From: a virus
Strand: one strand, 5' to 3'
Length of the DNA: 22,670 bases
Virus record (IMG/VR): IMGVR_UViG_3300036398_003866
Coordinates: 1 to 22,670 of that record
Part shown: positions 5,542 through 22,568 of the stretch, piece by piece
Position numbering within the stretch: the first letter of the stretch is position 1
How the letters are laid out: each line of letters starts with the position of its first letter
Made by a program: the position numbers and the translations under genes
Notes under the pieces: generated by a model
Database searches by the model: none
Told to the model about the DNA's origin: nothing
Seen by the model: only the letters and a program-made list of their open reading frames with translations

Positions 5542-5550
5542 GAGAACCTT

Positions 5551-6916: not shown

Positions 6917-7921
6917 TTACAACAGATCGAGGAGCCGAGCGGCGTTCGTGGTGAACGTCCGGTCGGCGACCGCAGCCCGGGCCTGGGCGGCGGCGTCGGC
7001 ACGATGGTCGTCGTGGGTGAGCCACCAGTCCAAGAGGTCCCGGACCTCGGCCGGCTCGGTGAACGTCGGCAGCATCGACAGGACCCGGTCGCCTTCGGGG
7101 CGGGGTTCCCGCAGGAAGAAGCAGCCGGTCGCGGCGAGCTCGACTTCCCGGGGGCCCATCGCCCAGCCGTCCGCCCCGGCGGAGCCTTCCTTGCGGTACA
7201 GGTTCAGCGACGCCCGAGCCGACTGGTACAGCACGGTGGTCTCGTCGTTGTCGAGGCAGTAGTCGTCAGGGTGCACGAGCCGCTCGGTGAACCAGGGGCC
7301 GGCGTCGGGCCAGTTGCCGCCGAGGCGCACGTCGAGGCCGGCGAGGTCGCAGGCTTCGAGGAACTTGATGCGGGACGGGTAGCCGGTGCCGACGAACGCG
7401 AGGTCGCAGGCCCATTCGGGGAGGCCCGGGCCGGGCCGGTGCAGCTGCGGGTCGTGGGCGTGGGGCACGTAGTAGGAGCGGGGCTGGTGTTTGCGGAACT
7501 CGGGAAGGTTCGTCGGGTCGTTGACGAGCACCACATCGAACAGGCTGGCCCGTTCGATCTGACGGTCGTCCTCGTAGGGCGATTCGGTGAACAGGGCGAC
7601 GAGCTTGTGACGGCGGGCCCGGATCACCTGGAGGATGTCGGGCGGGATGTAGAAGCCGCTCGTGACGAGGACCACGTCGGGCCAGAAGTCGTAGCAGGCC
7701 TCTTTCAGGCCGTTGGCGGCGAGGCGGATCCCGGCCTCGTTGTCGAACACTTGGCGCAGCTCGCCGTCTTTCTCGAGCATCGCCTGGGTGAAGAAGTCGA
7801 GCCGGTCGTCGAGCGCATACTCGACGACTTCGACGCCGAGCTGCTGGAACGCTCGTAGCCAGCCGTTGTGAACATCGAGCACGGAGAAGTGCGGGCCGGG
7901 CCGCACCATGAGGACCCTCAC
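6917..7921 (-). CDS. CgeB-like glycosyltransferase (GT-B fold)
   Basis: A 334-residue protein resembling the spore maturation CgeB / Glyco_trans_1_2 type. It has an N-terminal Rossmann-like start (VRVLMVRPGPHFSVLD), DVVLVTSGFYIPPDIL at about 82-97, LFTESPYEDDRQIERASLFD at about 110-129, DLAFVGTGYPSRIKFLEAC at about 173-191, and the nucleotide-sugar-site-like stretch GPREVELAATGCFFLRE at 256-272 with the conserved acidic residue. The typical C-terminal helix region (RDLLDWWL) follows. It would transfer a sugar from a nucleotide donor; the acceptor is unknown. It starts one base beyond the stop of the tail terminator gene with GTG (an in-frame ATG lies at 7909) and ends before a terminator-like hairpin. 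It interrupts the usual terminator-tube gene order, so it looks inserted. A virion protein substrate is an inference. Confidence 0.82.
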   Translation of the reverse strand: MRVLMVRPGPHFSVLDVHNGWLRAFQQLGVEVVEYALDDRLDFFTQAMLEKDGELRQVFDNEAGIRLAANGLKEACYDFWPDVVLVTSGFYIPPDILQVIRARRHKLVALFTESPYEDDRQIERASLFDVVLVNDPTNLPEFRKHQPRSYYVPHAHDPQLHRPGPGLPEWACDLAFVGTGYPSRIKFLEACDLAGLDVRLGGNWPDAGPWFTERLVHPDDYCLDNDETTVLYQSARASLNLYRKEGSAGADGWAMGPREVELAATGCFFLREPRPEGDRVLSMLPTFTEPAEVRDLLDWWLTHDDHRADAAAQARAAVADRTFTTNAARLLDLL

Positions 7922-8326
7922 TTAGAAGTAATCCTCCCGGCCGACCTGGCATTCGGTGATGGCGATCCAGCAGTCGAGCTCGTCGGCGTAGTCGACTTCC
8001 CACTGCGACGCCCCGAAGTACGGGTCGTTGGCACCCCGCCCGAGGATCGCGTCGACCTGGTCGATCGCCGTGTCGAGCCGCGCCTGGGTGATGTCCTGGG
8101 TGCCGTCGGCGCAGTAGATCCGCAGCTGGAACCGGAAGAACTCCGGGGTGACACCCACCGTGAGGATCGTCACCGAGGCCGGCTTGGCGATCTCGCCCGG
8201 GTTCGGTTCGTGACCGTAGACCCGGCTGATCGCCGTGAGCGTCGCCGCCGGGGCGCCGGTCGTGATGTTCGATGCGAGCCGGGCGAACAGGTCGGCCTTC
8301 GCGTTGGCGAGGCTGGTCGGGGCCAT
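7922..8326 (-). CDS. Tail terminator-like protein
   Basis: A 134-residue protein starting with the ATG at 8326, which forms TGATG with the connector stop. The upstream in-frame extension is an out-of-frame reading of the connector gene and is rejected. A helical N-terminus (ANAKADLFARLASN) is followed by a beta-rich body (ASVTILTVGVTPEFFRFQLRIYC at about 50-72), a helix (RLDTAIDQVDAILG) and a C-terminal edge (WEVDYADELDCW, then CQVGREDYF). This order resembles tail terminator or tail completion proteins of actinophages, which cap the tail tube and join it to the head. Its position after the connector supports this. Sequence conservation in the class is low, so an alternative neck role remains possible. 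Confidence 0.6.
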   Translation of the reverse strand: MAPTSLANAKADLFARLASNITTGAPAATLTAISRVYGHEPNPGEIAKPASVTILTVGVTPEFFRFQLRIYCADGTQDITQARLDTAIDQVDAILGRGANDPYFGASQWEVDYADELDCWIAITECQVGREDYF

Positions 8327-8952
8327 CAGGCGATCCCGGCCGGCCGGATGTATTCGGCGAGCAGTTCGATGACGGCCCGGGGGACCGCGAAGGCGGGGAT
8401 GCCGAGGCCGACGTCGTCGACGGGCCCGAAGGTGGAGGAGCCGACACCCTGCTCGCGGCGCCACAGATGCGAGAACATGATCGCGGCGCCCCGCTTGAAG
8501 ACCTCGTCGACGAGGGCGGTGGTGGCGTAGCGGCCGGCGACGTAGGTGACGACGACGGCACCGCCGGCGGGGAACGTGTACGGGCCACCCTGGGAGCGGC
8601 GGTAGATGCGGTACGGCGCTTCGGCGGTGATGTCGATCAAGAAGGCGTCGGTCGGCTTCGACGAGACGGACTCGCCGGTGAGGGTGGTGGCGCTGCCGTC
8701 CTGGTCGTACTCGATGCACGAGCTGACGGATGCGATCGGGGTGTGGCGCACGTCGATGAACGGGGCGGCACCGCAGTAGTGCGTCTCGTTGGAGATAGTG
8801 CGCCGCACGACATAGCCGCAGAGAGTGTCGATCCGACGGGAGACGCCGGTGATGTAGGCGGCGAGCTCGGTGTCGTAGGTGGTGTTCGACGCGTCGATGT
8901 TGACCGCCGCCTTCGCCTCGGTCAGCGAAATGATGTCGAGCGTGTCGGGCAT
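8326..8952 (-). CDS. Head-tail connector protein, gp6-like
   Basis: A 208-residue protein. The N-terminus SLTEAKAAVNID (about 8-19), followed by TYDTELAAYITGVSRRIDTL and the 'GYVV' segment, is the helical pattern of phage gp6-like / gp15-like head-tail connectors, which form a ring under the portal. A beta-rich insertion follows (HTPIASVSSCIEYD), then VVVTYVAGRYATT and a helical C-terminus. The ATG at 8952 has GAGG about five bases upstream, lying within and just after the stop of the glycosyltransferase gene. In typical phages this gene directly follows the capsid gene; here about 4.3 kb, mostly sugar enzymes, lies between them. Confidence 0.78.
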   Translation of the reverse strand: MPDTLDIISLTEAKAAVNIDASNTTYDTELAAYITGVSRRIDTLCGYVVRRTISNETHYCGAAPFIDVRHTPIASVSSCIEYDQDGSATTLTGESVSSKPTDAFLIDITAEAPYRIYRRSQGGPYTFPAGGAVVVTYVAGRYATTALVDEVFKRGAAIMFSHLWRREQGVGSSTFGPVDDVGLGIPAFAVPRAVIELLAEYIRPAGIA

Positions 8953-8959
8953 CTGGTCC

Positions 8960-9535
8960 TCACTTGCAGTCGTAGGGCAGCTGGCCGAGGCTCAGGTTCT
9001 GCCCGTGGAACCGGTAGGTCCAGGTGACCTTCGGTTCGCAGACGAACTCAGCGCCGACCTCGAGGGCCCGCTGCCAGAAGTCCCAGTCTTCGGCGCAGTC
9101 CCAGTCGGTCGTCTTGCGGTATCCGCCGAGCTCCTGCCAGAGGCTGGTGCGGACCAGCGCGCCGCCGCCCGGGATGAAGTTCCGGTGCCGCAACGTGTCG
9201 GCGTCGAACTCGGCGTTCGGGGTCCACCCGTCGCGACCTTCGCTGCGACACCAGGTGTACGTCACGTCGTACCAGCCGGCCGCCGCGGTGACCGTGGCGA
9301 GATGCTGCGGGTCGAGGAGGTCGTCGTCGCACATGACCATCAGCCAGCGGGTGGTCACTTGGGCGGCGAGCCGGTTGATGGTGGCGACGAATCCGTCGCG
9401 GGGATGATCGACGGCGATCAGATGCGCCCGGGGGGCGACGGTCTGGGCGGCCACCGAGGCGCACAACTCGCCGAGCATCCCGGATCGTTCCGGCATCGAC
9501 GCCGTCAGGATCGTGACGTCAGCGGTAGCGCGCAT
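8960..9535 (-). CDS. GT2-family glycosyltransferase (GT-A fold)
   Basis: A 191-residue protein from the ATG at 9535. The reading frame is open further upstream, but that part overlaps the preceding gene and is Thr/Pro-rich without family character. GT2 hallmarks are visible: N-terminal ADVTILTASMPERSGMLGEL, helix LCASVAAQT, the metal and nucleotide-sugar-binding CDDDLLDP with DDD at 70-72, GGGALVRTSLWQELGGYR at 123-140, and the catalytic-base-like EDWDFWQRA at 149-157. It is short for GT2 but has all core parts of the catalytic domain. It overlaps the GT32-like gene by 17 bases and ends seven bases before the connector gene. Donor and acceptor are unknown. Confidence 0.85.
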   Translation of the reverse strand: MRATADVTILTASMPERSGMLGELCASVAAQTVAPRAHLIAVDHPRDGFVATINRLAAQVTTRWLMVMCDDDLLDPQHLATVTAAAGWYDVTYTWCRSEGRDGWTPNAEFDADTLRHRNFIPGGGALVRTSLWQELGGYRKTTDWDCAEDWDFWQRALEVGAEFVCEPKVTWTYRFHGQNLSLGQLPYDCK

Positions 9536-10199
9536 CGAGGAACTCGTCGGTGGGCTGGTCGGACCAGCGGTCACGGGTGTGACCCCAGTGGTGCACCGCA
9601 TACGAGTCGGGATGGTCGGCCCACTCGTCGCGCATCGACTCGACGTCGTAGAGGACCGGGTTGAACGCCACCTTCGGAAAGACGTGGAGGAGGCCCGGGT
9701 TCGTGCGGTCCATCCAGCTCAACAGGTGCGGGCCGGTGACCCCGTTCATCGGCTCACCCTGAAGTTCCCGGTACCGGGGTTCGAGCTCGTCGAGCAGCCG
9801 ATCGAAGAACCTATGGCCCGGCTCGCAGCCCATCAGCGCGTTCGACAGGAACTCGCCGTCTTCCATCCCGGCGAACGCCGAGATCCCATCGAGGGGAATC
9901 TTCCGGAGGGCTTCCATGTCACAGTTCGCATAGATGCCACCGAACTCGAACAGCAGCTCGTACGACACCACGTCGGCCCGCTGCACATGCACCCCGAGCT
10001 CAGGCACCCCACCGCCCACGTTCACACCCCGACGGGCGATCTCGTCGAACACCCACTGGTTCCGCAGGGCCGGCAGATCATCCTCACGCCACAGGCGCAC
10101 CTCGTAGCCGAGACGCTCCCAGGTGCGGCCGAACTCCACCAGCTCCCGGCGCATCGGGGCCGGCCCGAACCAGATGCGGTGCACGACCTCGGGGATCAC
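9519..10199 (-). CDS. GT32-like (OCH1/capsular type) glycosyltransferase
   Basis: A 226-residue protein from the GTG at 10199, which forms GTGA with the stop of the SDR gene. The family start is clear: IPEVVHRIWFGPAPMRRELV at 2-21, then YEVRLWREDDLPAL, then RADVVSYELLFEFGGIYANC at about 74-93. In the Gly_transf_sug (GT32) family the last motif normally ends in a DXD that holds the metal and nucleotide sugar; here it reads Asn92-Cys-Asp94 then Met-Glu, so the first Asp is Asn. The C-terminal half has GVTGPHLLSWM and HHWGHTRDRW, matching the usual end of the family. It probably transfers a hexose. Activity with the altered DXD is uncertain, although the rest of the site is preserved. Confidence 0.82.
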   Translation of the reverse strand: MIPEVVHRIWFGPAPMRRELVEFGRTWERLGYEVRLWREDDLPALRNQWVFDEIARRGVNVGGGVPELGVHVQRADVVSYELLFEFGGIYANCDMEALRKIPLDGISAFAGMEDGEFLSNALMGCEPGHRFFDRLLDELEPRYRELQGEPMNGVTGPHLLSWMDRTNPGLLHVFPKVAFNPVLYDVESMRDEWADHPDSYAVHHWGHTRDRWSDQPTDEFLDARYR

Positions 10200-11101
10200 G
10201 GCTTCGACCAGGAGATGCCTTCGGCCTTGCGGTAGTACTCGACCGTCTCGGCCACCCCGTCGCGCAACGTCCGGAACGACGGGCAATGCCCGTACAGCGG
10301 CTCGAGTGTCACCGGATCACCGACGACGGTGGAGTCCTCCGGTTCTCCCGGGCGCATCGGCAGATGCGTGATCGTGCCGCCCGTGTACTCGGCGACCAGC
10401 TCGGCGATCTCGCGGACCGTCGGGGCGTACCCGGTGCCGGCCTCGTAGCAGAAGCCGTCCGGGTTCGGGCCGTGCAGCATCGCCCGCACGAACACTTCGG
10501 CGACATCAGCGACGTGGATCATGTCCATCCGTTGGGCGCCCGACCCGTAGACCTCGATCGGGTCGCCGGCCAAGCCGCGGCAGATGAACGCCGGCATGAT
10601 CTTGCGGACCTTGCTGTGCCCGTACGGAGCGGCGACCGACTGGCCAGGCCCGTAGGCGTTCAACGCCCGGACCACAGCGATGCGGGTACCCCGCTCGGTG
10701 TTGTACATCTCTGCGAACCGTTCGGCACACGTCTTCGAGATCGAATAGCCGTTGATCATCCAGTAGTTCCCGACCGCGGCGAGCGCGGCGGGGACCTGGT
10801 ACTGGGCGACCGCCTCGAACACGTTGAGTGCCCCGAGGATGTTCGTCTCCGCCGCCGGCCGAGGGTTGGCGATCGTCTCCTGGGTGCCGAGCACCGCGGC
10901 GAGATGGATGACCCCGTCGGCGTGGGCGACCGCCTCGGTCACCGCCACCGGATCCCGCACATCGCCCAGAATCAGCTCACACCCAGCCGGTGGCTTCCGG
11001 ACATGCCGATCAAAAATCACGGGCGTCAGATCGCGCTGTAGCAGCGCTGCGACGACGTGAGACCCGATGAACCCGGAACCTCCGGTGACCAGCACGTTCA
11101 T
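10196..11101 (-). CDS. NAD-dependent nucleotide-sugar epimerase/dehydratase (extended SDR)
   Basis: A 301-residue protein of typical length for extended short-chain dehydrogenases. Residues 6-13 (TGGSGFIG) are the GxxGxxG dinucleotide motif; Asp31 at the end of the second strand suggests NAD rather than NADP; GDVRD (46-50) and HLAAV (66-70) are classic. The catalytic Tyr119 and Lys123 are in YSISK. NAYGPGQ at about 149-155 is the substrate-domain signature. It resembles UDP-glucose 4-epimerase and related dehydratases, so it would make or convert an activated sugar for the neighbouring transferases in the cytoplasm. It overlaps the GT2 gene upstream (ATGA) and the GT32-like gene downstream (GTGA). 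Exact substrate cannot be read from the sequence. Confidence 0.9.
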   Translation of the reverse strand: MNVLVTGGSGFIGSHVVAALLQRDLTPVIFDRHVRKPPAGCELILGDVRDPVAVTEAVAHADGVIHLAAVLGTQETIANPRPAAETNILGALNVFEAVAQYQVPAALAAVGNYWMINGYSISKTCAERFAEMYNTERGTRIAVVRALNAYGPGQSVAAPYGHSKVRKIMPAFICRGLAGDPIEVYGSGAQRMDMIHVADVAEVFVRAMLHGPNPDGFCYEAGTGYAPTVREIAELVAEYTGGTITHLPMRPGEPEDSTVVGDPVTLEPLYGHCPSFRTLRDGVAETVEYYRKAEGISWSKP

Positions 11102-11766
11102 GATGCCCCCAGCAGCTCGCGCACCGGCTCGAGATCCCAGCCGTGCATCTCCACAGTCCTGTTCCCCCAGGTGGAGGTGTGACCGTTGTGATCAGCGAGG
11201 TCGATCTGCGCCACCCGGTAGCCGGCCTCGTGGAGCCGCTGGCAGGTGGGCACGTCACCCCAGCCTTGGATCTTCTCGGGGACCGGGCCGATCTTCGGCC
11301 AGTCCCCCGGGCGGAACGACCAGGACGCCGCCCCGGTGCTGGCCCGGATCAACCCGGGGACCTGCCCGTAGCGGACCCGTTCCCGGATCGTGTTCCACTC
11401 GAACATCGGCTCGAGATGACAGCCGGTGAGGATCACGTCGGCGGGCGCTTCGGCCCACCAGTCCCGCAGCCGGTCAGCCCACCCGGGCCGCCAGCCCATG
11501 TCGTCATCGGACAGGACGCACAGATCTGCGTCGGTTCCGATGGCCACACGAGCACACAGGTTCGTGCCGTGCCCGCAGGTGGACAGCCGGTCCTTGGAGA
11601 CGTAGCCGCCGAGCTCGGCGACGAGCTCCGACGTGCCGTCCGTCGACCCGTTGTCGACCGGGATCACCCGGGCGTCCCGGGCCAGGGACTGATAACAGTC
11701 CCAGAACAGCGACTCCCGGTCGTTCAAGAACAGGTTGTGGCACAGGATCGCTGCGGTGATCCTCAC
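11098..11766 (-). CDS. GT2-family glycosyltransferase (GT-A fold)
   Basis: A 222-residue protein from the GTG at 11766, which forms GTGA with the GT4 stop. Motifs: RITAAILCHN at the start, PVDNGSTDGTSELV at 36-49 (the nucleotide-binding DNGSTDGT), GTNLCARVA, then LCVLSDDDMGWRPGWADRL at 82-100 with the DDD metal-binding site. The C-terminal half has a GWGDVPTCQRLHEAGYRV stretch, where the GT2 catalytic-base region (often ED) reads GD, then HNGHTSTW. The protein is compact and lacks membrane segments, so it should act on a soluble acceptor. It has no close resemblance to the second GT2 in the cassette (8960-9535) beyond the shared fold, so the two are not a recent duplication. Confidence 0.87.
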   Translation of the reverse strand: MRITAAILCHNLFLNDRESLFWDCYQSLARDARVIPVDNGSTDGTSELVAELGGYVSKDRLSTCGHGTNLCARVAIGTDADLCVLSDDDMGWRPGWADRLRDWWAEAPADVILTGCHLEPMFEWNTIRERVRYGQVPGLIRASTGAASWSFRPGDWPKIGPVPEKIQGWGDVPTCQRLHEAGYRVAQIDLADHNGHTSTWGNRTVEMHGWDLEPVRELLGAS

Positions 11767-12923
11767 AGCCGGATCGGCTCCACCGTCGGCACCAGGCCCT
11801 GCAGCTGCTCGAGTGCCGGCCGCCAGTACTGGGCGTACACCGAGTCGGCGTCGTACTGCTCGGCGAAGGTGCGGCACTGCGGGCCGAGCTCGGCGAGGAG
11901 GTCCCGGTTCTCGTTGGCGTGCCGGAGTGCATCGGCGATGTCGTCGATGATCGGGGTGCAGAAGTACGCGAGCTGGGCGGGATCCCAGCGGGGTTGCGCC
12001 AGCGTCTTGTAGCCGGGCCCGGCAAGTTCGGCCTGGGCGGAGAAGTCGGTGACGATCACCGGCGTCCCGCAGGCTTGCGCCTCGATCGTCGGGATCCCGA
12101 ACCCTTCGCCCATGCTCGGGAACAACAAGACGTCGAACGCCGAGTACAGGGTGGCGAGCTCGGCCTGGCCGATCATCCCCGAGCGGTACCGGTAGTCGTC
12201 GACGAACAGCAGATTCTCGGGGCTGATCCCGACGCCGGTGGCGAGGGCCCGCAGGTCCATGCCGCCGAGGGCGCCGCGCTGTTCCGCATGCACGTACAGC
12301 AGGGCGGTCGGGTCGGTGTCGAGCAGCCGGCGGAACGCGAGGAACGCTTCGGGGTACGCCTTGCGGCACGGCTCCAACGAGTTGTTCGTCGAGCACATCC
12401 CGACCAGGAACCGGTCGTCGAGACCGAGGCGGGCCTTCGCATCGGCGACCGGCTGGAAGACCTCGGTGTCGATCCCGTGGGGGACGTACAGCGGGTCGTG
12501 ACCGTCGCCTTGCAGCTGACGGCGACCGAACTCGCTCATGGCGATCGGCATCGAACCGGACTGCTGGAAGAACCGGGCGACGAGCCGAGGCATCGGCGCA
12601 TGGTCGATCGGCACCCACGACGCCAACGTGAACTCCGACAGGGCCGGATGATCCAACGTCCACACGTCGTAGAGGGTCAACAGCAAGCCGGGCTCACCGT
12701 CGAACCAGTGCAACGCATGGGCGCAGATCACGTCGTTGGAGTAACCCGACCCGGACGGGTAGACCCGCACCCCGTCCCAGTCGCGCACCCCACCCTGCAA
12801 CCCGTAGTTGGCGATGACCGCCACGTCGTGGCCGTCGGCCACCAGGCGAGGCACGACCTGGGCGGTCTGCTGCCCGTACCCGGTCGGCGCCCACGGCGCA
12901 TTCGAGAACCAGGCGATCTTCAC
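11763..12923 (-). CDS. GT4-family glycosyltransferase (GT-B fold)
   Basis: A 386-residue protein from the GTG at 12923, overlapping the 65-aa gene by GTGA. The N-domain begins VKIAWFSNAPWAPTGYGQQT, with the glycine-rich loop of GT4 enzymes; PHGID at 148-152 marks the linker to the C-domain. RFLVGMCSTN (171-180) starts the second Rossmann domain. EGFGIPTIEAQACGTPVI (273-290) is the EX7E donor-site motif with both Glu residues (273 and 281). It is soluble, with no signal or membrane helix, and would use a nucleotide sugar. It opens the five-gene sugar cassette inserted after the capsid gene. The fold assignment is very secure; donor and acceptor are unknown. Confidence 0.9.
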   Translation of the reverse strand: MKIAWFSNAPWAPTGYGQQTAQVVPRLVADGHDVAVIANYGLQGGVRDWDGVRVYPSGSGYSNDVICAHALHWFDGEPGLLLTLYDVWTLDHPALSEFTLASWVPIDHAPMPRLVARFFQQSGSMPIAMSEFGRRQLQGDGHDPLYVPHGIDTEVFQPVADAKARLGLDDRFLVGMCSTNNSLEPCRKAYPEAFLAFRRLLDTDPTALLYVHAEQRGALGGMDLRALATGVGISPENLLFVDDYRYRSGMIGQAELATLYSAFDVLLFPSMGEGFGIPTIEAQACGTPVIVTDFSAQAELAGPGYKTLAQPRWDPAQLAYFCTPIIDDIADALRHANENRDLLAELGPQCRTFAEQYDADSVYAQYWRPALEQLQGLVPTVEPIRL

Positions 12924-13245: not shown

Positions 13246-14511
13246 TCAGGTGGTCGGGGCCTTGAGGAACTTCACGTGGCCGTCCACACCGCCGACGTAG
13301 TCGGAGTCGCTGCGCAGGACGGTCCGGAAGGTCACCAGGTCCGAGCTGAACGCGAACTCGTCGCTGCGCTCGAACCGGACGTTGGCCACGTCCCGGATGT
13401 AGAAGTTCGAGAAGTTCCCGAACGCCATGTGGGTCCCACCCGCCGTCGCGAACGTCGTGACGTTGGGGTCGAGCACCATCGGGTAGCCGAGCAGCCGGTC
13501 AGGCTCGCCTGCGGTCAGCGTCGGCTCCCACAGCGGCCGGCCCGTCGTGTCGGTGATCCGACGGATCTTCGCCGCGTTGGTGTCGAGCGTGAACCAGTAG
13601 GCACCGAGCGACCGGGCCTGCGGGTTGACCGAGTAGACCAGGTCCACGAGGTTGCCGTAGGACGGCACCCCGGTGGCTGCGGTCTGGGCGGTCGCCCCGA
13701 CGGACTGGGTCGTCATGATGCCCTTGGGCTTCGAGGAACCCGAGCCGGTGACGTAGTCGCTGTCGGTCACCCGGGCGATGGCCTGGGCGGTGTCCCGGGC
13801 GATGAACCCGAGCATGTCGATGCCCGTGTCGGCCAGCAGCTCGCTCGACACCTGGGTGAGCACACCGTACTTCCAGGCGTTGAGGGTGGTCTTGCCGAAG
13901 GTCGGCTCGACCTCGCCGATGGCCGTGCCCTCACCGCGGATCGCCGCCGTCGAGCGGGTCGCCACGTGGGGGATCTCGAGGGCCTCACCCGACTGGGTCG
14001 TGAGCACCGTTACGTTGAGGTTCCGGGCCCCGGTGTAGAACTCGACGTACTCGACCAGCTGCCGCTGGAACGACGTCGGCACCGTGTTGCCGCCGAGGGC
14101 TGCGGTGTCCTCGAGGAGGTCACGCAGCTCGCGGGCGTCGGCACCCGAACGGATCAGGCGCTTCTCCCGCCACGCCGGGCCGAGGTCGAGGTCGATGCTG
14201 CGGATCTCGCCGCGGAGGAAGCGGGTCATCTCGTCGACCTGCTTCTCGGACCGGCGGGTCATCTCGGCCTCGGCGATGACCGGCTCGTACGCGGCCCGGG
14301 CCACGGAGGCCTCGCGCTCACGCTGCTCGATGTCGAGGAACGACCGGATCTGGCCGTCCTTCTCGTCGATGTCCCGGTTGATGGCGTCCCACTTGGCCTG
14401 CTCCTCGCCGGTGAGCTCGCGCGCCTCGCGCTCCGCCACCTCGAGCAGCTCCTTGGCCTCGTGCCACGCACGCTGCCGCGCGTCGCGCAGCTGGTTCAGG
14501 TAGTTCTGCAT
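13246..14511 (-). CDS. Major capsid protein, HK97 fold
   Basis: A 421-residue protein. Residues 1-110 are highly charged and helical (RDARQRAWHEAKELLEVAER, KWDAINRDIDEKDGQIRSFL), the scaffold-like delta domain removed by the protease in HK97-type phages. The capsid fold follows: ALGGNTVPTSFQRQLVEYVE at about 138-157, then the E-loop and P-domain (SGEALEIPHV, EVEPTFGKTTLNAWKYGVLT, VSSELLADTGIDMLGFIARD) and the A-domain with SDYVTGSGSSKPKGIM, LVDLVYSVNPQ, LLGYPMVLDPN and FGNFSNFYIRDV. AAGGA lies about eight bases before the ATG. The exact cleavage site is not visible. Upstream are the protease and two small genes; downstream is the hairpin region that separates it from the sugar cassette. Confidence 0.95.
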   Translation of the reverse strand: MQNYLNQLRDARQRAWHEAKELLEVAEREARELTGEEQAKWDAINRDIDEKDGQIRSFLDIEQREREASVARAAYEPVIAEAEMTRRSEKQVDEMTRFLRGEIRSIDLDLGPAWREKRLIRSGADARELRDLLEDTAALGGNTVPTSFQRQLVEYVEFYTGARNLNVTVLTTQSGEALEIPHVATRSTAAIRGEGTAIGEVEPTFGKTTLNAWKYGVLTQVSSELLADTGIDMLGFIARDTAQAIARVTDSDYVTGSGSSKPKGIMTTQSVGATAQTAATGVPSYGNLVDLVYSVNPQARSLGAYWFTLDTNAAKIRRITDTTGRPLWEPTLTAGEPDRLLGYPMVLDPNVTTFATAGGTHMAFGNFSNFYIRDVANVRFERSDEFAFSSDLVTFRTVLRSDSDYVGGVDGHVKFLKAPTT

Positions 14512-15009: not shown

Positions 15010-15335
15010 GGTGGGACACGCCGCTTCAGCAGCGCCAGGTGCCGCTTACGGACCGACTCGCCGCCCAGCAACTCGACGGGGATCACCCACAGTTTGCACA
15101 CACCCGCTGGGGAGATCTCACCGTCGACGATCTCGCATGCCTGCGGACCTTCGTAGAACCAGCAGTTCGCACAGACCATCCCGTCACCGGCGAACGGCGA
15201 CTCGGCCACATAGTGCGCACCGTCCGGGCCGATGCCCTGATCCCACTTGCCGAGCAGATCAGCGATCTCCTCGAGCGTCTCGTACATCAGCTGCTGGCGA
15301 GGCGCCGCCTCGTACATCGAGTCCTCGAGGCTCAC
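15000..15335 (-). CDS. Four-cysteine (HiPIP-like) small phage protein
   Basis: A 111-residue protein from the GTG at 15335 (GTGA overlap with the protease stop). Four cysteines are spaced C55-x2-C58-x8-C67-x12-C80 in the segment beginning VCANCWFYEGPQACEIV and ending SPAGVCKLWVIP. This resembles the Cys pattern of high-potential iron-sulfur protein-like domains found in some phage head modules, though the spacing is shorter than in true HiPIPs. It could bind zinc or an iron-sulfur cluster, or the cysteines could form disulfides. The N-terminal third is acidic and helical, and the last 25 residues are basic. It lies between protease and capsid genes. Metal binding and any role in the head are inference. 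Confidence 0.55.
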   Translation of the reverse strand: MSLEDSMYEAAPRQQLMYETLEEIADLLGKWDQGIGPDGAHYVAESPFAGDGMVCANCWFYEGPQACEIVDGEISPAGVCKLWVIPVELLGGESVRKRHLALLKRRVPPCA

Positions 15336-16024
15336 GCCGCCGGGCCCAGCTGCTTCGCCAGCAACGCCAGGCGCAACGCCACCAGGCCCGACGTGGTGCG
15401 CTCCTCCACCAGCTCCGGCACCAAGACCTCGGCGACCTCGGCCTCGAGCTCGTCGGGGAGACGACCCGACCGGATCGCCTCCACCAGCACCCCGGCGTCC
15501 ACGCCCCGCTTGCCGGCCAGATGCTCCACCGCCCGGGTCGCGACCTCCGTGTCGAGGTACGCCGGGTACGTCACCGGCGAGACGTCACCGTTGTGGAGGC
15601 TCACTTCCCGCAACGTCCGCAACGGATAGCCGTCATCGGTGCGATCCCACCGGTCGTCGATCACCCGGAACCCGAAGCTCGACTGGGTGATGTCACCCCG
15701 CTCGATCGAGACCATCAGATCCCGGCCGTACGACGTGTCGGGGATCTTGACCTCGTAGGCCAAACCCCGGTCGTCTTCCTCGAGGTACAACGTGCCGGCC
15801 TTCGACCGGCCGAGGATCAAGCTGGCGTCATGGTTGAACAGGGCCCGCACGTCGGCTTCGCCGATCGTCTTACGGAACGCACCCGGAGCGATGCGCTCCA
15901 CGAACCCGCCGAGGTCCTGCGACAGCCGGTTGAAGACGGCGGCATGCCCCGCGATGCGGAACTCGTCGCCGACCGCCCGGGCCTCGAACTCGGTGGAGTA
16001 GTAACGGCGCTCACTCGGGCGCAT
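15332..16024 (-). CDS. Prohead maturation protease, HK97 (S78) type
   Basis: A 230-residue protein that should cleave the capsid delta domain in the prohead. The family pattern is clear: the N-terminal beta-strand FEARAVGDEFRIAGHAAVFN, then ERIAPGAFRKTIG (43-55), ALFNHDASLILGR (61-73) with the catalytic His65, QSSFGFRV (114-121) with the active-site Ser115 or Ser116, and REVSLHNGDVSPVTYPAY (139-156) containing the conserved acidic residue Glu140. The C-terminal 60 residues are helical and probably serve as scaffold. The ATG at 16024 has GAGGTG close upstream and overlaps the 611-aa gene by 14 bases. Its partner substrate is the capsid protein two genes downstream. Confidence 0.92.
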   Translation of the reverse strand: MRPSERRYYSTEFEARAVGDEFRIAGHAAVFNRLSQDLGGFVERIAPGAFRKTIGEADVRALFNHDASLILGRSKAGTLYLEEDDRGLAYEVKIPDTSYGRDLMVSIERGDITQSSFGFRVIDDRWDRTDDGYPLRTLREVSLHNGDVSPVTYPAYLDTEVATRAVEHLAGKRGVDAGVLVEAIRSGRLPDELEAEVAEVLVPELVEERTTSGLVALRLALLAKQLGPAA

Positions 16025-17846
16025 TGGTCACCTCACTGATCGCAGCAGCCACAGCCCCCACTAGGCGTTGCTGATGGATCCAACGGGCGGCCTTCGGCCG
16101 CCAGACTCGTTGCACTGCCGAGCAGGCCGCTCGTGTCTCGACCCGTCGACCGCTTCGCACCACACACGCCGACACGGCCCGCACCGGCGCCGCCCGACAT
16201 TCGACCAACGTGCCCCAGCACACCGCCCGAGCCACGACCTCGAAATGGCTGCGCACCGCTGGCGTCGCCACCGGCAGCTGCACCGTGGCCGGCCCGACGA
16301 TGACCCGGACCGAAATGACGAACCGGGTCCGTTGCCGGTACAGCGGCCCGAGCGGTTTCGGCTTCGGATACCAGCTCGAGGCGGGCGGCAGCGGCAAGCC
16401 ACCACCGGCCGAGATGGTTCCCGAACCGTCGAGCAGGCCAGCACCGGAACGGATCGTCGACCCGCCGGCAGCGACCGCACCCGACCCGGCCAGGAGGCCC
16501 GCAGCCGAACGGATCGCCGACCCGGAGGCCGACACGGTGCCGGCCCCGACGATCGTCGCCGCACCGGGTTCGCCGCCGGTAGCCGACAGAGCCCCGGATC
16601 CGGCGAGCTCGGCGCCACCCGACATGAGCCGGCTGCCGGTCGCAGTCACCGCACCCGACCCGGCGATCGCCGCCTGGCCGGTCTTGGCGACATCACTCGA
16701 AGCGCTGATCGTCCCGGTTCCGGCGACGGCAGCCTGTCCGAGCGCGGTCCGCAGACCGCTCCCCGACACACTTCCGTCGCCGACGACCGTCGCCGCACCG
16801 GCCGCCACACGAACCCCGGCCGCCTCGACCGTCCCGGTCCCAGCGACCGCACCGCCCGCGGCGCGCACTGCGACACCCGACCCGGAGACCGCACCCGACC
16901 CGGCCAACGTCGCCAAACCGACCCGGGCCGCAACGCCCGACCCGACGAGCTGACCGTCCCCGGCGACCGCACCGGCACCGAGCCGCACGGCAACCGCCGC
17001 CGCCGACACCGCCCCGGCCCCAGCCAGTGCACCCGCCCGGCCCCGCACTGCGAGACCCGACGCCGACACGGCCCCGTCGCCCGCCACGCTGCCGGTACGG
17101 GACCTGGTCGCAGAACCCGACCCGGAGACCTGACCGTCCCCAGCGACCGCACCCGATCCGCCGCGGCTCGTCACCGCCCGGATCTCGACCGCATGCATCA
17201 GCATCCGGTCGTTCGCCGCCGACGCCGACCCGTCGACCGACGTGTCATTGTCGTTGCGGAACTCGAACGACAGGCGCATCGTGTCGCCGCCGGACGCCTG
17301 CTGGGCGTTCAGACCGGAGACGATCGCGAAGCCGGAACCCGCCGTGTTGGTGAGTGTCCCGCCCGCATTGTCGTACGAGAGGAACCAGCCGCCCGTCGCG
17401 TTGCTCGACGACGCAAACGCACCCAGCGTCGCAGTGACCGTGTCGGCCGTCGTCGATGCGACCGCCGACTGCACCATGCCCCGGTCAGCACCCCGGGCCA
17501 CATCCGTCAGCTCGGCGACACCCCAGATCGCACCGTCAGCCGTCTGACCCGAAGGCACCGCACCCGAGAACGTGATCGCCCCGGCCGACGCCGACGAATC
17601 CGCATAGCCGGCCCACACGGCCATCGACGGCTGCGTGGTACCACCCCCCACGTCGTTGCCGACCCGGGACCAGGTGATGTTGTTGCCGCTGATCGAAGGG
17701 ACCAGCGGCGAACCACCCAGGTCATGGACCGCAAACGCGACCAGGTAGATCTTCCCGGCCGTGGGCGTCCATGACGCAGTGGTGAAATCCCTGGCGTCGG
17801 TGTCGGTCCCGGCGACGTTGAGGGCTGACGCAGCGGAGACAGGCAT
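16011..17846 (-). CDS. Repeat-containing putative virion surface protein (611 aa)
   Basis: Not assigned to a known family. Three parts are visible. Residues 1-225 are Gly/Ala/Ser/Thr-rich and beta-like (KIYLVAFAVHDLGG, GNNITWSRVG, MLMHAVEIRAV), similar in style to beta-sandwich surface domains of environmental phages. Residues 233-482 are twelve tandem units of 20 residues (one has 18) plus a partial thirteenth, with consensus roughly hydrophobic-AG-x-G-x-V-S-G-x-G-x-A-x-R-x-x-A-G. Residues about 486-611 begin PASSWYPKPKPLGP and become Arg-rich with four cysteines (543, 550, 561, 575). GAGGGGGG about four bases before the ATG is a strong ribosome site. Being coded between portal and protease suggests a head-associated fibre, but a tail fibre is possible. 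Its many Ser/Thr and small residues make it a candidate glycan acceptor, which is inference. Confidence 0.72.
   Translation of the reverse strand: MPVSAASALNVAGTDTDARDFTTASWTPTAGKIYLVAFAVHDLGGSPLVPSISGNNITWSRVGNDVGGGTTQPSMAVWAGYADSSASAGAITFSGAVPSGQTADGAIWGVAELTDVARGADRGMVQSAVASTTADTVTATLGAFASSSNATGGWFLSYDNAGGTLTNTAGSGFAIVSGLNAQQASGGDTMRLSFEFRNDNDTSVDGSASAANDRMLMHAVEIRAVTSRGGSGAVAGDGQVSGSGSATRSRTGSVAGDGAVSASGLAVRGRAGALAGAGAVSAAAVAVRLGAGAVAGDGQLVGSGVAARVGLATLAGSGAVSGSGVAVRAAGGAVAGTGTVEAAGVRVAAGAATVVGDGSVSGSGLRTALGQAAVAGTGTISASSDVAKTGQAAIAGSGAVTATGSRLMSGGAELAGSGALSATGGEPGAATIVGAGTVSASGSAIRSAAGLLAGSGAVAAGGSTIRSGAGLLDGSGTISAGGGLPLPPASSWYPKPKPLGPLYRQRTRFVISVRVIVGPATVQLPVATPAVRSHFEVVARAVCWGTLVECRAAPVRAVSACVVRSGRRVETRAACSAVQRVWRPKAARWIHQQRLVGAVAAAISEVTNAPE
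16398..17150 (-). repeat. Twelve and a half tandem 60-base (20-aa) repeats
   Basis: Units start at residues 233, 253, 273, 293, 313, 333, 353, 373, 393, 413, 431, 451 and 471 of the 611-aa protein, so the period is 60 bases with a single 54-base unit. Each unit carries an 'AGxGxV' core followed by an 'SxSG' turn and a variable half, often with one Arg. At DNA level a 17-base string ACCGCACCCGACCCGGC recurs on the plus strand at 16474, 16648 and 16888, with spacings of 174 and 240 bases that match the unit period. Units are diverged, so expansion is not very recent. Confidence 0.85.
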
Positions 17847-17891: not shown

Positions 17892-18269
17892 CTAGGTGAA
17901 CGTGTAGGTGAGCGCCGTGAGGTTGAACGTGTCGCCCGCAGTGACCGACACCGAGCTGGTCAACGCACCCGCACCCAGGCAGTTCCCGGCGCTGATGTTG
18001 TCCCACAGCGAGATGTGGCTGTACGTCTCCGTGGCAGCCACGTTCGTCCAGCTCGGCGAGTTGGACAGCGAGATCACCCCGCTCGACGCAGCCCCGAACT
18101 CGACGGCCTTTCGGGTCGTCTCCGTCGCCGCGTTCGACGTGCCGGCCTCACCCGGGTCGCCGGTGTGCAACTTGGCGTACACCGCAGCGGGCGCCGTGAA
18201 CGACGAGCCGTTGCCGCCGCCACGCAGCGCGTTGCCGATGGCGTTCTCGAGGTAGTCCGACATGCTCAC
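17892..18269 (-). CDS. HTGDPG-type phage structural protein (125 aa)
   Basis: A 125-residue protein of a type common in actinobacterial phages and prophages. It has an N-terminal helix (DYLENAIGNAL), YAKLHTGDPGEAGTSNAATE at 31-50, RKAVEFGAASSG, SWTNVAATETYSHISLWD at 73-90 and a beta-rich end (LTSSVSVTAGDTFNL). The pattern fits a small beta-sandwich such as a head decoration or fibre-tip protein. The precise role is not established to my knowledge. GTG at 18269 gives a GTGA overlap with the 98-aa gene; ATG at 18263 is the alternative. It lies between the portal and the 611-aa repeat gene, so these three genes may build one accessory structure on the virion. Confidence 0.65.
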   Translation of the reverse strand: MSMSDYLENAIGNALRGGGNGSSFTAPAAVYAKLHTGDPGEAGTSNAATETTRKAVEFGAASSGVISLSNSPSWTNVAATETYSHISLWDNISAGNCLGAGALTSSVSVTAGDTFNLTALTYTFT

Positions 18270-18562
18270 AGGATCTCGATCTCCAGGTCGTGGGCGAACT
18301 CGGCGCCCGGCGGCAACGGCAGCGGGGCACTCAACCGGTGCAACGTCTCGACAGTCACATCACCCTCGAGCAGCCGCACCTCGTCGAAACGGACCAGCCG
18401 TGCGAACGGACCGAACACCAGCCGGCCACGGATCTGACCGTCCTGGTGGGGGAGTGGTTGGCGGGCGTAGCCGACGGCGACGACCTCGAGGCCGTCGTCG
18501 AACAGGGCGACGGAGAGGCGAGGCGAGTCGAGGGCCCGGAGCAGGAAGGCGCGCAGGCTCAC
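18266..18562 (-). CDS. 98-aa small phage protein following the portal
   Basis: Starts at the GTG at 18562, overlapping the portal stop by GTGA. The upstream in-frame extension to 18862 is an out-of-frame, Arg-rich reading of the portal gene and is rejected. Residues 1-33 (RAFLLRALDSPRLSVALFDD, then EVVAVGYARQ) show a helix followed by strands. The body is made of beta-strand-like pieces (GRLVFGPFARLVRFDEVRLL, VTVETLHRL) and the end has PLPPGAEFAHDLEIEIL. The segment 'VALFDxGxEVVAxGYARQP' resembles short beta proteins that accompany HTGDPG-type proteins in other phages. No function can be given. It is probably structural because of its coupling with the next gene. Confidence 0.6.
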   Translation of the reverse strand: MSLRAFLLRALDSPRLSVALFDDGLEVVAVGYARQPLPHQDGQIRGRLVFGPFARLVRFDEVRLLEGDVTVETLHRLSAPLPLPPGAEFAHDLEIEIL

Positions 18563-19770
18563 TCGTGGACCTCGGTGACACCGTCGACGGGTTCGTCGAA
18601 CTCGGTGAACAGCCGCACGTTGATGTTGCGCATCGCGTCGTCGGGCCCGGTGCCTGCAGGCTCCTCGGGCGGCGTGTTGATCGGGTCGAGGTTCTCCCAG
18701 GCTCGGACCTCGTTGAGCTCGAGGAACCCGGTCTCGATCCCGATCTTGTAGGACTCGTACCGGTCCCGCAGCGCCGAGCGGAGGAACGCGTCGAGGTTCA
18801 CCTTGGCGAACTGGGGGCGGGGCAGCAGCTTCGTGAACGCGCGCTCGATCCGGACGATCCACGGCATCAGCGAATACTTCGTCACGTCCGAGCCCAGCTG
18901 CTCAGTGTTGGCGTACGTCATGCTCGACCCGGACATCGGCGTGAACGGATGCTGCAGGCCGAACAGCCGGTAGATCTGTTCGTCGTTGTACTTGCGAGTC
19001 TCGAGGAACTGCGCCTGGTCCGGTGTGATCGAGATCGGCGTGTAGTTCGCACCGCCGGTCAGGACGGCCGGCAGGTTCGACCGGTTCACCCCGCCGTGCG
19101 CGGCCCGCCACGACTGGGCGAGCTCCTTGGCCTGCTCGGGGGTGACGATGCCCGGCGACGTGATCACCCCGGACGGGGTGGCGCCTTGGGCGAAGAACTT
19201 GGAGCCGTACGTCTGGGCGGCGAGGCCGAGGCCGATCGCGTCCCGGGCTGCGGTGATCGGGTCGACGCCGACCTTCGCGCCGGGGAACAACATCGCCGGG
19301 ATGTGCATGATCTCGCCGTCGAACCGCTGCCCGTTGATCCGGAACGCTTTGCGCATCCCGACCGATTCGACCTGCACCATGTCCGGGTGCATCGGCCACA
19401 ACTCGACGATCTGCCCGCCGTCGTTGCGGGTCACCAGCCAGAACGCATTGCCGCGCAACAGCAGACTCACGATCGTCTGCACGAGGAACGCCACCCGGTC
19501 GGTGTCGACGTTCGGCTGCTCCAACCAGGCCGGCGTCGGAATCGACTCGGTCTGATTCCCGCGGCCCCGATACACGTCGACCGGCAGCATCGCGATCGAG
19601 TCGGAGATCACCCGCACACACGAGAACACAGCCAGCAGCTGCATGCTCGTGTGCTCATCGACCCGCACCCCAGCAGACGACGCCGGGGCGAAATCCAGGT
19701 CGTCGCCGCGGCCCCAAGCCGCCAAGGCTGGATCCCGAATCGCTCGGCTCTCAAACAGCCTTGCCAGCAT
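18559..19770 (-). CDS. Portal protein, HK97 type
   Basis: A 403-residue protein of normal length for this family. It would form the twelve-subunit ring through which DNA enters and leaves the head. Family features: SMQLLAVFSCVRVISDSIAM at 42-61, PVDVYRG, TIVSLLLRGNAFWLVTRNDG at about 99-118, ELWPMHPDMVQV, IMHIPAM, DPITAARDAIGLGLAA, then FFAQGATPSGVI, KYNDEQIYRLFGL with its 'E-I-x-R-x-F' motif, and NLDAFLRSALRDRYESYKIG near the C-terminus. GGAG about six bases before the ATG supports the start, which overlaps the small membrane protein gene by 20 bases. The C-terminal EPVDGVTEVHE tail is acidic. Confidence 0.93.
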   Translation of the reverse strand: MLARLFESRAIRDPALAAWGRGDDLDFAPASSAGVRVDEHTSMQLLAVFSCVRVISDSIAMLPVDVYRGRGNQTESIPTPAWLEQPNVDTDRVAFLVQTIVSLLLRGNAFWLVTRNDGGQIVELWPMHPDMVQVESVGMRKAFRINGQRFDGEIMHIPAMLFPGAKVGVDPITAARDAIGLGLAAQTYGSKFFAQGATPSGVITSPGIVTPEQAKELAQSWRAAHGGVNRSNLPAVLTGGANYTPISITPDQAQFLETRKYNDEQIYRLFGLQHPFTPMSGSSMTYANTEQLGSDVTKYSLMPWIVRIERAFTKLLPRPQFAKVNLDAFLRSALRDRYESYKIGIETGFLELNEVRAWENLDPINTPPEEPAGTGPDDAMRNINVRLFTEFDEPVDGVTEVHE

Positions 19771-19912: not shown

Positions 19913-21420
19913 AAGGCCCCCAGGTTGATGACCTGCGGCGACGCCTGCGGTTTCGCGGCGACGCTCAAGGCGATGCACATGGCGACCGCCGAGTCGATCC
20001 GGTCTTTCGACTTCGACTTGGCGAGGGTGAACCCCCGCTCGTTGGAGCGGGACACAGCGTTCAGGACTTGCGTCTCGAACGCTTCGTCGCCGTCGTGGGA
20101 GATCTCGCCCCGGCGGATCATCTCGTAGCAGCCGCCGACCGCCGGGGTCATCCGCTCGAGGGACTGGGGGAACTCGAGCATCGGGTAGCCCTCGTCCTCG
20201 AGCTGCTGTGCGGGGAGGTCGAAGAACCTCGGGTCGTAGGCAACGCCCCGGACGTCGTACATCGCGGCGAGCTCACGGATCGTGGCCATCGCATCGGTGA
20301 CGTCGAGGCGGCCGTCGTCTCGAGGCAGCCAGATCTTGGCTTTCACATGCCAGCGTTCGCCCCGCTGCTGCACCCACACCACAGCCGTCGAGTCGTGCTT
20401 CAACGCGACGTCGACCCCGATCCACGTCGGCGCCGATGGTTCCATCGCCCACGGGTCGGCCAGGCCACGCCACAGGTTGCGGCCGTCAGACCCCAGCCAC
20501 GACTCGACCCCGTCGACCCACTGGCCCAGCTGGAAGATCCGAAAATGGGATTCCGGCGACAACGCCACCGCAGTCCGCATAGCGTCGATGTTCTTGTAGC
20601 CCTCGGCGAGCGCCGGATTCGCCTGGTACCACTGCTCCTCGTCGAGGATCGAACAGCCCTCGTCCGCCGCGTACTCGGTGTAATGAAAGCCGGGCAGCTC
20701 AGCCCCCGACCTCACCCGATCCCGCAAATGCCACAAGGCAGAACGACGATCGAACCCCGGAGTGCCGATGCCGGCCACGAGCGATCTCGGCCGCTTGCCG
20801 GAAGCCAGCAGCAACGAGTCCCACGACTCGATGCCCATGAACCCGATCTCGTCGCAGACGGCGACGCTCGGATCCAGACCCTGCAAACCATCGGGATCGT
20901 TCGACACCGGGAACATCTCGCCCCCGGACCGGGGAACCAGCACACGCGTATTGCCGATCCCCGAATAGATGAGGCACTGCTCGACCAGGCGAGGCTCGCG
21001 CTCGATCATGTGCACAGCCACGCCGTACACCGAACGAATCGCCTGGCCGATCGTCGTCGCCACGATCGGCACCTGGGGCGCACCCGAATCATCCGGATCG
21101 AGCAACGCCCAGACCGCAACCGTCGCCAAGAACGTCGACTTACCGTTGCCTCTCGGCAGCTCCATCGCCGCCGAACTCACCCCCGGCGCCAGAACCCGCC
21201 GCAACCAATCCTTCTGGAACTCGGCCAGCCGCAACAGCTCACCAGCTCCGTAACCCTTCGGCGGCCGGCAATACGACTCGATGAATCGAATCGCACGCTC
21301 CGCCCGATCCGACTCCCGCCACCGATACCACGGCGGCTCACCCGGATCTTCCCACTTCTTCCGAGCATTCCGAGCACCGAACTTCGCACCCTGCGAACCA
21401 GTGTCCTGGCGGCCTGCCAT
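19909..21420 (-). CDS. Terminase large subunit
   Basis: A 503-residue DNA packaging motor ATPase and nuclease. The ATG at 21420 forms TGATG with the HNH stop; a GTG three bases upstream is possible. Walker A is PRGNGKST at 89-96, Walker B SVAVCDE ends at Asp190-Glu191, and the ATPase coupling region follows (LASGKRPRSLVAGIGTPG). The RNase-H-like nuclease domain has WIGVDVALKHDSTAVVW at about 333-349 with the first catalytic Asp, AYDPRFFD, and a last acidic pair in SKDRIDSAVAM near 476. All expected catalytic residues appear present. The terminal genes of the module follow directly. No small terminase gene is recognised in front of it; an HNH gene takes that place. Confidence 0.95.
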   Translation of the reverse strand: MAGRQDTGSQGAKFGARNARKKWEDPGEPPWYRWRESDRAERAIRFIESYCRPPKGYGAGELLRLAEFQKDWLRRVLAPGVSSAAMELPRGNGKSTFLATVAVWALLDPDDSGAPQVPIVATTIGQAIRSVYGVAVHMIEREPRLVEQCLIYSGIGNTRVLVPRSGGEMFPVSNDPDGLQGLDPSVAVCDEIGFMGIESWDSLLLASGKRPRSLVAGIGTPGFDRRSALWHLRDRVRSGAELPGFHYTEYAADEGCSILDEEQWYQANPALAEGYKNIDAMRTAVALSPESHFRIFQLGQWVDGVESWLGSDGRNLWRGLADPWAMEPSAPTWIGVDVALKHDSTAVVWVQQRGERWHVKAKIWLPRDDGRLDVTDAMATIRELAAMYDVRGVAYDPRFFDLPAQQLEDEGYPMLEFPQSLERMTPAVGGCYEMIRRGEISHDGDEAFETQVLNAVSRSNERGFTLAKSKSKDRIDSAVAMCIALSVAAKPQASPQVINLGAL

Positions 21421-22406
21421 CACCCCACCAAACGCAGCTGCTCATTGGCCGGCCGGTTGCCCTTGCTCACATTGCAACGCAAATGGGCCAGCTGGACATT
21501 CGCCCAGGTGTGCGTACCGCCAAGAGATACCGGCACGATGTGATCCAACGACGGGCCCATCGGGTCTTTCTTCGAGCGGCCATCTCTTGCAACTTTGCCG
21601 CCGCATAGTTGGCAGCACCACTTGTCCCGCTCGGCGACTTTCAGCAGATCAATGCGTTCGATCGGCCCGTTGTTCAACATTCGAGCCTTGCGCCGATGCA
21701 CGGCATCCAGGAACTGTGGAGGAGTACGCCCGTACTTGGCGGCTTCGGCTCGATAATGCTCACGTGCTCGCAAAGTGTTGGCAACCCCGCTGCACTTGGA
21801 ACTGCAATAACGTTGAGTCGCCAGCTTCGTAACAAACGCACGATCACAGGTTCCGCATTGCAGCGACAGGACCGGCCGAGGCATCTGCGGAAGGTGAATG
21901 CGTTGTGCTTCACCCATGCATGCGCGCGAGCAGTACTTTGCCCAGGTCGTCGGCTGACCTTTGACCGACTGTTGTTTATGCGGCCAGAAGCCAACCTCGC
22001 AAACCGCGCATTGCATCCACGGGCCTCGTCCTGGAGGTGCTGGACTCTTGCACCCGCTGCACCTCGGCGTGGAGACATGCCGTTCCGACAAGCCAATGAA
22101 CGTGCCACACGAACCGCACACATGCCGATAGACACGCGACGAGTTCGCCGGAGTGCCTTTGCCCTTCGACGCAGAGTTACACCGACGCGAACAGAACAGC
22201 TTGCGTTTGTGTCCTGCGGCCGGTGGCACAAAGCTCCACCCGCACCACACGCAAGGACGCGCGTGCGGAGTCCAGTCAGGCGGCAAGCCGGCTCGGACAC
22301 GTCCCCTGCAGCGGGCGTCGGCGTTCGTGCATTCGCGACACCGGCACGGATACGGGTGCGGCATGAACTCACGAAACGGAGCTGAGTTGCGCATAGCCTT
22401 GGGCAA
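21420..22406 (-). CDS. HNH endonuclease with multiple zinc-finger-like cysteine pairs
   Basis: A 328-residue protein. I choose the TTG at 22406 because GGAGG lies exactly seven bases upstream; the ATG at 22394 is the alternative. The HNH domain is at the C-terminus: C265-x2-C268, LDHIVPVSLGG with Asp288-His289, Asn303, His308 and CNVSKGN, all canonical positions. Five cysteine clusters precede it: 21/23/26/33, 52/55/72/76, 97/100/116/119, 133/136/159/163 and 184/187/201/205. Most are of the form CxxC...CxxxC with a YCS or FCS step, typical of zinc-ribbon-like units. The gene is visibly less GC-rich than its neighbours. HNH proteins next to terminases assist cos cleavage in some phages; a homing role is the alternative. 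Confidence 0.85.
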   Translation of the reverse strand: MPKAMRNSAPFREFMPHPYPCRCRECTNADARCRGRVRAGLPPDWTPHARPCVWCGWSFVPPAAGHKRKLFCSRRCNSASKGKGTPANSSRVYRHVCGSCGTFIGLSERHVSTPRCSGCKSPAPPGRGPWMQCAVCEVGFWPHKQQSVKGQPTTWAKYCSRACMGEAQRIHLPQMPRPVLSLQCGTCDRAFVTKLATQRYCSSKCSGVANTLRAREHYRAEAAKYGRTPPQFLDAVHRRKARMLNNGPIERIDLLKVAERDKWCCQLCGGKVARDGRSKKDPMGPSLDHIVPVSLGGTHTWANVQLAHLRCNVSKGNRPANEQLRLVG

Positions 22407-22434
22407 GTCGGCACCTCCAGAGGGTGTCGGCCAC

Positions 22435-22465
22435 GCCCCCGGACGGCTGCAACCGTGCCGGGGGC
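22435..22465 (-). promoter_or_regulatory. Strong hairpin in the HNH leader
   Basis: Arms GCCCCCGG (22435-22442) and CCGGGGGC (22458-22465) pair perfectly, extended by ACGG/CCGT with one bulged base around a six-base loop. It lies about 13 bases upstream of the GGAGG ribosome site of the HNH gene on the minus strand. There is no U-run after it, so translational or processing control fits better than intrinsic termination. Confidence 0.4.
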
Positions 22466-22568
22466 ACCTGTCTCCACAGGCCGAGGGGCCTACGAGTAGG
22501 TATGGACAGTTGGGCGCTGGGTGTTGCTCAGACGCCACTAAAAGATCGAAGGCGCGACGGACGCAGCC

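Follow-up and report, generated by a model that had tools for sequence, protein, structure and literature searches.

Few parts of phages are as poorly understood as the fibres of the neck and head. In the Ralstonia podophage GP4, fibre I reportedly has an elongated rope protein that joins five gp80 dimers. A second described system is the neck of Shigella phage Sf14 (map 9C39), in which, according to the neck description in PMC11821841, two whisker sets are built from gp30 and gp31: the adaptor holds gp30 dimers, on which gp31 dimers rest, and a single gp30 chain threads two whiskers. Here we analyse a 611-residue protein with a 20-residue repeat that is encoded directly downstream of a gp80-like gene in IMG/VR virus record IMGVR_UViG_3300036398_003866, all 22,670 bases of which are referred to as the window. 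From homology, synteny and periodicity of the pair, we propose, with a probability of roughly 0.45, that the gp80-like protein has this repeat-built protein as its partner and that the two together form head–tail junction fibres (whiskers).

The upstream neighbour matches PF23140, "Podophage GP4 fiber I protein gp80" (E = 5.9e-28; 98.2 bits against a cut-off of 27), and phrog_240, "head protein" (E = 3.6e-32). Additionally, it matches the PDB chains 8jou_a (E = 5e-8; 10 chains in this entry) and 9c39_K (E = 2.7e-5), and the matched stretch lies within the 110-residue gp31 of Sf14; it is thus homologous to neck or tail-vertex fibre proteins that cryo-EM has resolved in Sf14 and GP4. The 611-residue protein itself gives no match to the Gp80 profile. 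In the direction of transcription, the window runs terminase, portal, gp80-like gene, repeat-protein gene, protease, two small genes, major capsid protein and sugar cluster (Table 1), and the Sf14 record runs portal, gp30, gp31, protease, decoration and capsid; the window therefore has the Sf14-type arrangement of a gp31-like gene between portal and prohead protease. The first-pass annotation had placed the repeat gene between portal and protease, a position in which it did not expect fibres. The slot is right, although the gp80-like gene intervenes and the repeat gene does not directly follow the portal gene. The expectation fails, since the neighbour is a Gp80/whisker homologue and the Sf14 whisker genes lie between portal and protease, so that a fibre-type gene is known for this slot. 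In one gp80 locus of the survey given below (L070, 4285-5043), a natural tandem fusion carries two Gp80 domains in a single frame (4291-4653 and 4672-5031), as expected if gp80 acts in pairs.

The repeat gene is, as first claimed, a minus-strand open reading frame (ORF) with an ATG start and 611 codons for residues. Between the window and its relative L002, differences at codon positions 1, 2 and 3 number 14, 8 and 56 in the N-terminal domain and 28, 15 and 47 in the C-terminal part, and codon-position differences from a further relative, L011, also back the minus frame. Because the pattern of substitutions fits the minus frame, the plus-strand ORF of 568 residues opposite the repeats (16068-17774) is rejected as a shadow. 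The repeat gene shares 14 bases (16011-16024) with the start of the protease gene, an overlap that suggests coupled translation.

Within residues 227-482, identity autocorrelation peaks at a lag of 20 (45% identity; z = 13 relative to 500 shuffles of the residues), with a second peak at lag 40 (z = 10). Specifically, 13 GxG cores extend from residue 235 to residue 473, spaced 20 residues apart in eleven cases and 18 in one, so that the earlier count of twelve 20-residue units was right to within one, and the beta-rich N-terminal domain that it had placed ahead of them is confirmed. Gly and Ala make up half of the repeat region, and Ser and Thr 20%. A tandem-DNA artefact is rejected: Tandem Repeats Finder returns no rows on the repeat DNA, which is too diverged for it, yet the protein periodicity is strong.

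The same pairing is frequent among uncultured viruses. The survey took the best 80 of 470 confirmed gp80-like contigs and examined the next ORF, which has at least 150 residues in 70 of the 80 loci and forms 32 clusters at 80% identity (left out: L025, L026, L034, L035, L042, L051, L054, L062, L069 and L072). A lag-20 score (z20) of at least 4 is found in 23 of the 32 next-gene clusters, compared with 5 of 243 clusters of other ORFs from the same loci (Fisher p = 1e-21, in a test that ignores remaining kinship among clusters). The proteins after gp80 range in length from 176 to 1501 residues. Besides the portal–pair–protease–major capsid protein layout of the window, the pair occurs as major capsid protein–pair (L038, L065, L011), portal–pair–major capsid protein (L070), and major capsid protein–virion protein–pair–virion protein, in the head category (L090). 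The ends of the repeat proteins are variable, and include "LEQLD" N-terminal parts with Trp-rich C-terminal parts, "FTDTPGFREF" N-terminal parts and a LamG-like N-terminal part (L022). Taken together, the pair recurs as neighbours in many unrelated phage architectures, with the period kept while the ends and the residue motif vary.

Two side observations concern these ends and lengths. An 815-residue LamG-containing protein of the window (1253-3700) matches the L022 repeat protein (4182-5993) with its LamG-like N-terminal part, so that end domains apparently pass from one virion gene to another. In L053 (6392-10897, on a 160 kb contig), L049, L037 and L044, the protein is a giant of 705 to 1501 residues with 20/42-residue periods.

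In the viral contig search, the N-terminal domain is 79-92% identical in L002, L010/L003, L011/L004 and L012/L005, 37-39% identical over part of its length in L013, and 35% identical over a short stretch in the L006/L007/L014/L015 group (about 23% in L015); the N-terminal domain is conserved among the relatives of the window, whereas what follows it, repeats and C-terminal part alike, is replaced. Specifically, the C-terminal part is common to the window, L002 and L010 and is absent from L011 and L012. The gp80-like gene and the repeat protein are both present in all four relatives checked (L010, L011, L012 and L015). In L013, the N-domain relative stands alone as a free 222-residue protein without repeats (7971-8639), and this record has no gp80 match. 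Relatives of the N-terminal domain are absent among the genome contigs searched, and relatives of the whole protein among the GenBank phages searched.

A column-permutation test (60 permutations, one protein scored per test group) compares the repeat motifs themselves. The motif of the window group scores in the groups PO (z 14.8), FW (12.9) and L022 (10.5), with none of the 60 permutations as good, and in the reverse direction the motifs of PO, FW and L022 score 24.9, 6.3 and 5.4 in the window group. A separate unit finder returned its own seed for L015 and L070, whose rows there are discounted. Several groups, though not all, have unit motifs in common beyond what composition gives. In profile scans, the whole 611-residue protein matches no Pfam family at E <= 0.1 and no PHROG. 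Among 27 repeat proteins scanned together, several PHROG families are matched, with the best support for phrog_23524 (13 proteins), phrog_8987 (9) and phrog_21286 (3), and almost all of the families matched carry no function. The earlier statement that no described family has this architecture is therefore correct in that no function had been attached, and too strong in that several PHROG families are matched and one relative exceeds the DUF2807 cut-off (below). A search of papers available without subscription found no published account of either the repeats or the Gp80 family.

Isolated phages extend the pairing to cultured systems. In GP4-type isolates, the protein after gp80 has a z20 of 7.0 in DC1, 7.8 in BcepIL02, 7.4 in CSP3, 4.3 in BcepMigl, 6.3 in POI1126 and 4.4 in PBC5, and of less than 4 in JC1 (3.4), Itty13 (2.9) and Atu_ph08 (2.6; an ORF called in this analysis, where the record annotates another frame). 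The period thus reaches z20 >= 4 in six of nine isolates, five of the nine being closely related Lessieviruses. In MW202462, a repeat gene labelled "serine-rich adhesin" (z20 9.9) follows a gp80-like gene, and in Methylophilales phage Venkman, gp51 has a z20 of 10.9 with the gp80-like gene elsewhere in the genome. The period-20 proteins of two further isolates, L100 (4959-5675) and L101 (4044-5933), carry the labels E3 ubiquitin-protein ligase HERC6 and glycerophosphodiester phosphodiesterase, which are probably misannotations.

We propose that the 611-residue protein would act as the backbone, or rope, of a neck fibre, fixed at one end by its N-terminal domain or its C-terminal part. Gp80-like subunits would dock on the 20-residue repeats, each of which would offer them an equivalent strand; the repeat number could thereby set both fibre length and bead number, and the fibre may capture or bind the host surface, possibly decorated by products of the sugar genes. 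Recurrent pairing, a period retained while the residues change, the threading chain of Sf14, the L070 tandem fusion and the reported arrangement of gp80 dimers along a rope in GP4 together make this the most economical reading. We infer from them incorporation of the protein into the virion, contact with the gp80-like protein, repeat-by-repeat docking and binding to the host. The broader suggestion of a virion-surface fibre or stalk is supported and remains the best description.

Several observations weigh against such a rope. The strongest comes from the virion proteomics of JC1 (PMC9144972 Table 6), in which gp53, the gp80-like protein, is listed and gp54, the repeat protein, is not; a fibre with a single rope and many beads could account for the absence, though for now this argument is special pleading. 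The 20-residue period is missing in 9 of the 32 clusters following gp80, and the neighbours lack it in Sf14 (gp30), Megabear and Dori. Conversely, the whole records of Microcystis phage Mel-JY03, with a repeat protein of z20 13.9, and Pseudanabaena phage Pan4, with a related repeat protein, give no PF23140 match. In the column-permutation test the motif of the window group is undetected in GI (z 0.3), LE (0.2), RH (1.2), L070 (0.5), L015 (-0.4) and Mel (1.7), among them the GP4-type repeats (z 0.2, with 21 of 60 permutations as good), L070 and Mel-JY03. For GP4-type repeat proteins there is no convincing PDB chain match, and the shape that AlphaFold2 gives is a beta-helix standing by itself, not an extended rope.

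A serious though less likely alternative is a free-standing beta-solenoid stalk. In it the repeats would stack, one coil each, into a right-handed parallel beta-helix bearing the terminal domains or keeping them apart, and the gp80-like neighbour would be only an anchor or tip. The unit length is close to one coil, and with a rise of 4.8 Å per beta-helix coil, 13 coils would span about 6 nm. Both AlphaFold2 models, made from shallow alignments (6 rows for the window, 5 for L011), draw the repeats as a beta-solenoid, as the first-pass annotation had envisaged beside a stalk, at a repeat predicted local distance difference test score (pLDDT) of about 40-62 (mean pLDDT of the models: window 46, L011 53). 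The best VIA-align row for the window repeat region is 7vul_B, the phage P560 depolymerase (Z 16.8; root-mean-square deviation 3.5 over 254 residues), and the L011 repeat region falls on 7vul_A (Z 15.8; 3.1 over 245 residues), with GH87 glucanases next among the parallel beta-helix matches. The L011 beta-helix rows stand well above the next (7.6), whereas the window list declines gradually through other helical-beta proteins. On the other hand, Foldseek with the window model returns nothing at E <= 0.001, and the best match of L011 has a TM-score of about 0.17. A BFVD search with L011 gives 21 matches at E <= 0.001, mostly proteins of uncultured phages plus one mycobacteriophage minor tail protein, with low TM-scores for the whole model.

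Profile searches are divided in the same way. The L011 repeats exceed the cut-off of DUF2807 (PF10988; putative auto-transporter adhesin, head GIN domain) in three stretches (25.8 against 24.2 bits), and the window repeats weakly match PDB 3jx8/3lyc (E = 0.0045). Unlike L011, the window protein has no DUF2807 match, with none for its repeat region at E <= 1, and among the 27 repeat proteins L011 alone matches DUF2807 at E <= 0.01. A free-standing solenoid also leaves the frequent position of the repeat gene after gp80 unexplained. Given the low confidence of the models, and since no monomer prediction can show a rope bound to its partner, we regard the right-handed parallel beta-helix as a possibility for the repeats and not as a result. 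The N-terminal domain reaches a pLDDT of up to 86 in the L011 model, and its fold is left unnamed because the VIA-align rows for residues 1-225 reach a Z of only about 4-7.

An improbable alternative is a heavily glycosylated surface acceptor, for which the first-pass annotation had named the repeat protein the most plausible candidate: a scaffold for sugars added by phage glycosyltransferases that would shield the virion or adhere to mucus or the host. The window has a sugar cluster, for which six genes had been counted: four glycosyltransferase-like genes and one NAD-dependent epimerase gene exceed their Pfam cut-offs, and the sixth (9519-10247) falls below, with a PF04488 match of 21.3 bits against 23. 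Matches to PF13692 or PF00535 at E <= 0.001 were sought in 50 records chosen from the 80 loci, the window and its relatives, with L013 (no gp80), L025 and L026 set aside, L060 counted as repeat-positive (repeat ORF as second gene), and L064 and L071 as negative despite a more distant period-20 ORF. Of the 35 repeat-positive records 18 contain such a match, as does 1 of the 12 repeat-negative ones (p = 0.015, with records that are related and fragmentary; median lengths 13.4 and 12.3 kb), and all four relatives checked above contain one. A glycosyltransferase-like gene comes after the pair in L011, L015 and L038, and Ser plus Thr rises from the 20% of the window repeats to 31-32% in two other groups. 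Glycan modification of the repeat protein is possible given this co-occurrence, which does not single out the repeat protein: 17 of the 35 repeat-positive records have no match to the two families, and the targets of phage glycosyltransferases may include the capsid, the tail, DNA or sugars of the host.

Still less probable is a non-virion assembly factor for the gp80-like fibre, acting much as fibre chaperones or scaffolds do and lost from mature particles, which the JC1 list would suit in naming gp53 and gp55 without gp54 (PMC9144972), since proteins of up to 1501 residues with variable lectin-like or beta-sandwich ends look like surface parts, the records of DC1, BcepIL02 and BcepMigl label theirs as virion structural proteins (on a basis that is unchecked), and a protein of few copies per virion could evade detection.

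Table 1. Features of the window, with positions on the 22,670-base stretch
Feature	Position	Strand	Basis or remark
Whole repeat-protein gene	16011..17846	-	611 residues, ATG start; third-position substitutions back the frame
N-terminal domain, residues 1-225, probably two beta-sandwich halves (~1-115, ~116-225)	17172..17846	-	AlphaFold2 models
Repeat region, residues 226-482, 13 cores of ~20 residues	16401..17171	-	Autocorrelation, core spacing
C-terminal part, residues 483-611, with a Pro-rich linker followed by an Arg/Val/Trp-rich segment	16014..16400	-	pLDDT mostly <30
gp80-like fibre/whisker protein, 125 residues, presumed partner, directly upstream of repeat gene	17892..18269	-	PF23140 Gp80
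Portal protein	18559..19770	-	PF04860, E = 5.2e-84
Prohead protease	15332..16024	-	PF04586, E = 4.3e-48
Major capsid protein	13246..14511	-	PF05065, E = 3.1e-53
Sugar cluster, possible modifiers	6917..12923	-	Putative link to the repeat protein
Glycosyltransferase-like genes	6917-7921, 8960-9601, 9519-10247, 11098-11835, 11763-12923	-	Pfam scan; 9519-10247 below cut-off
NAD-dependent epimerase gene	10196-11101	-	Pfam scan

Outside these features, an HNH endonuclease gene with several CxxC motifs (21420-22538) adjoins the large terminase gene.

A two-gene signature, a gp80-like gene with a period-20 partner, would allow such fibres to be recognised in uncultured phages; related repeat proteins currently go by names like "serine-rich adhesin", "E3 ubiquitin-protein ligase HERC6" or "glycerophosphodiester phosphodiesterase". 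A wider version is doubtful: a widespread fibre system in which the 20-residue repeat would be a universal docking pitch for gp80-like beads, with length adjusted by gain and loss of repeats, ends swapped and glycosyltransferases providing decoration. Under this wider version, the rope of GP4 fibre I would be encoded directly after gp80, and a programmable neck fibre would be widespread among uncultured phages of aquatic origin. The finding offers a direct test of whether the number of repeats sets fibre length, and a candidate gene for the GP4 rope.

Compared with known systems, the neck fibres of Anabaena myophage A-1(L) (gp80-gp81-gp82) resemble the proposed structure as long bead-chain fibres at the neck, but in the account of PMC10966104 the beads are gp81 trimers, and gp80 coincides in gene name only. 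The neck whiskers of Sf14 are closer, the window gp80-like gene being homologous to gp31 and lying in the same portal–protease slot; gp30 of Sf14 (166 residues) differs in having no 20-residue period (z20 1.5), and its gene precedes gp31. GP4-type repeat proteins share with the window repeats the period only and not the motif, and they are smaller, at 143-291 residues against 611, the window protein having in addition a 225-residue N-terminal domain. In line with GP4 fibre I (PDB 8JOU), the window has a PF23140 gp80-like gene adjoining the repeat gene, and the gene after gp80 in GP4-type isolates, a set that GP4 itself stands outside, usually has the 20-residue period. A position next to gp80, as in the Lessieviruses, would then mark the rope gene of GP4.

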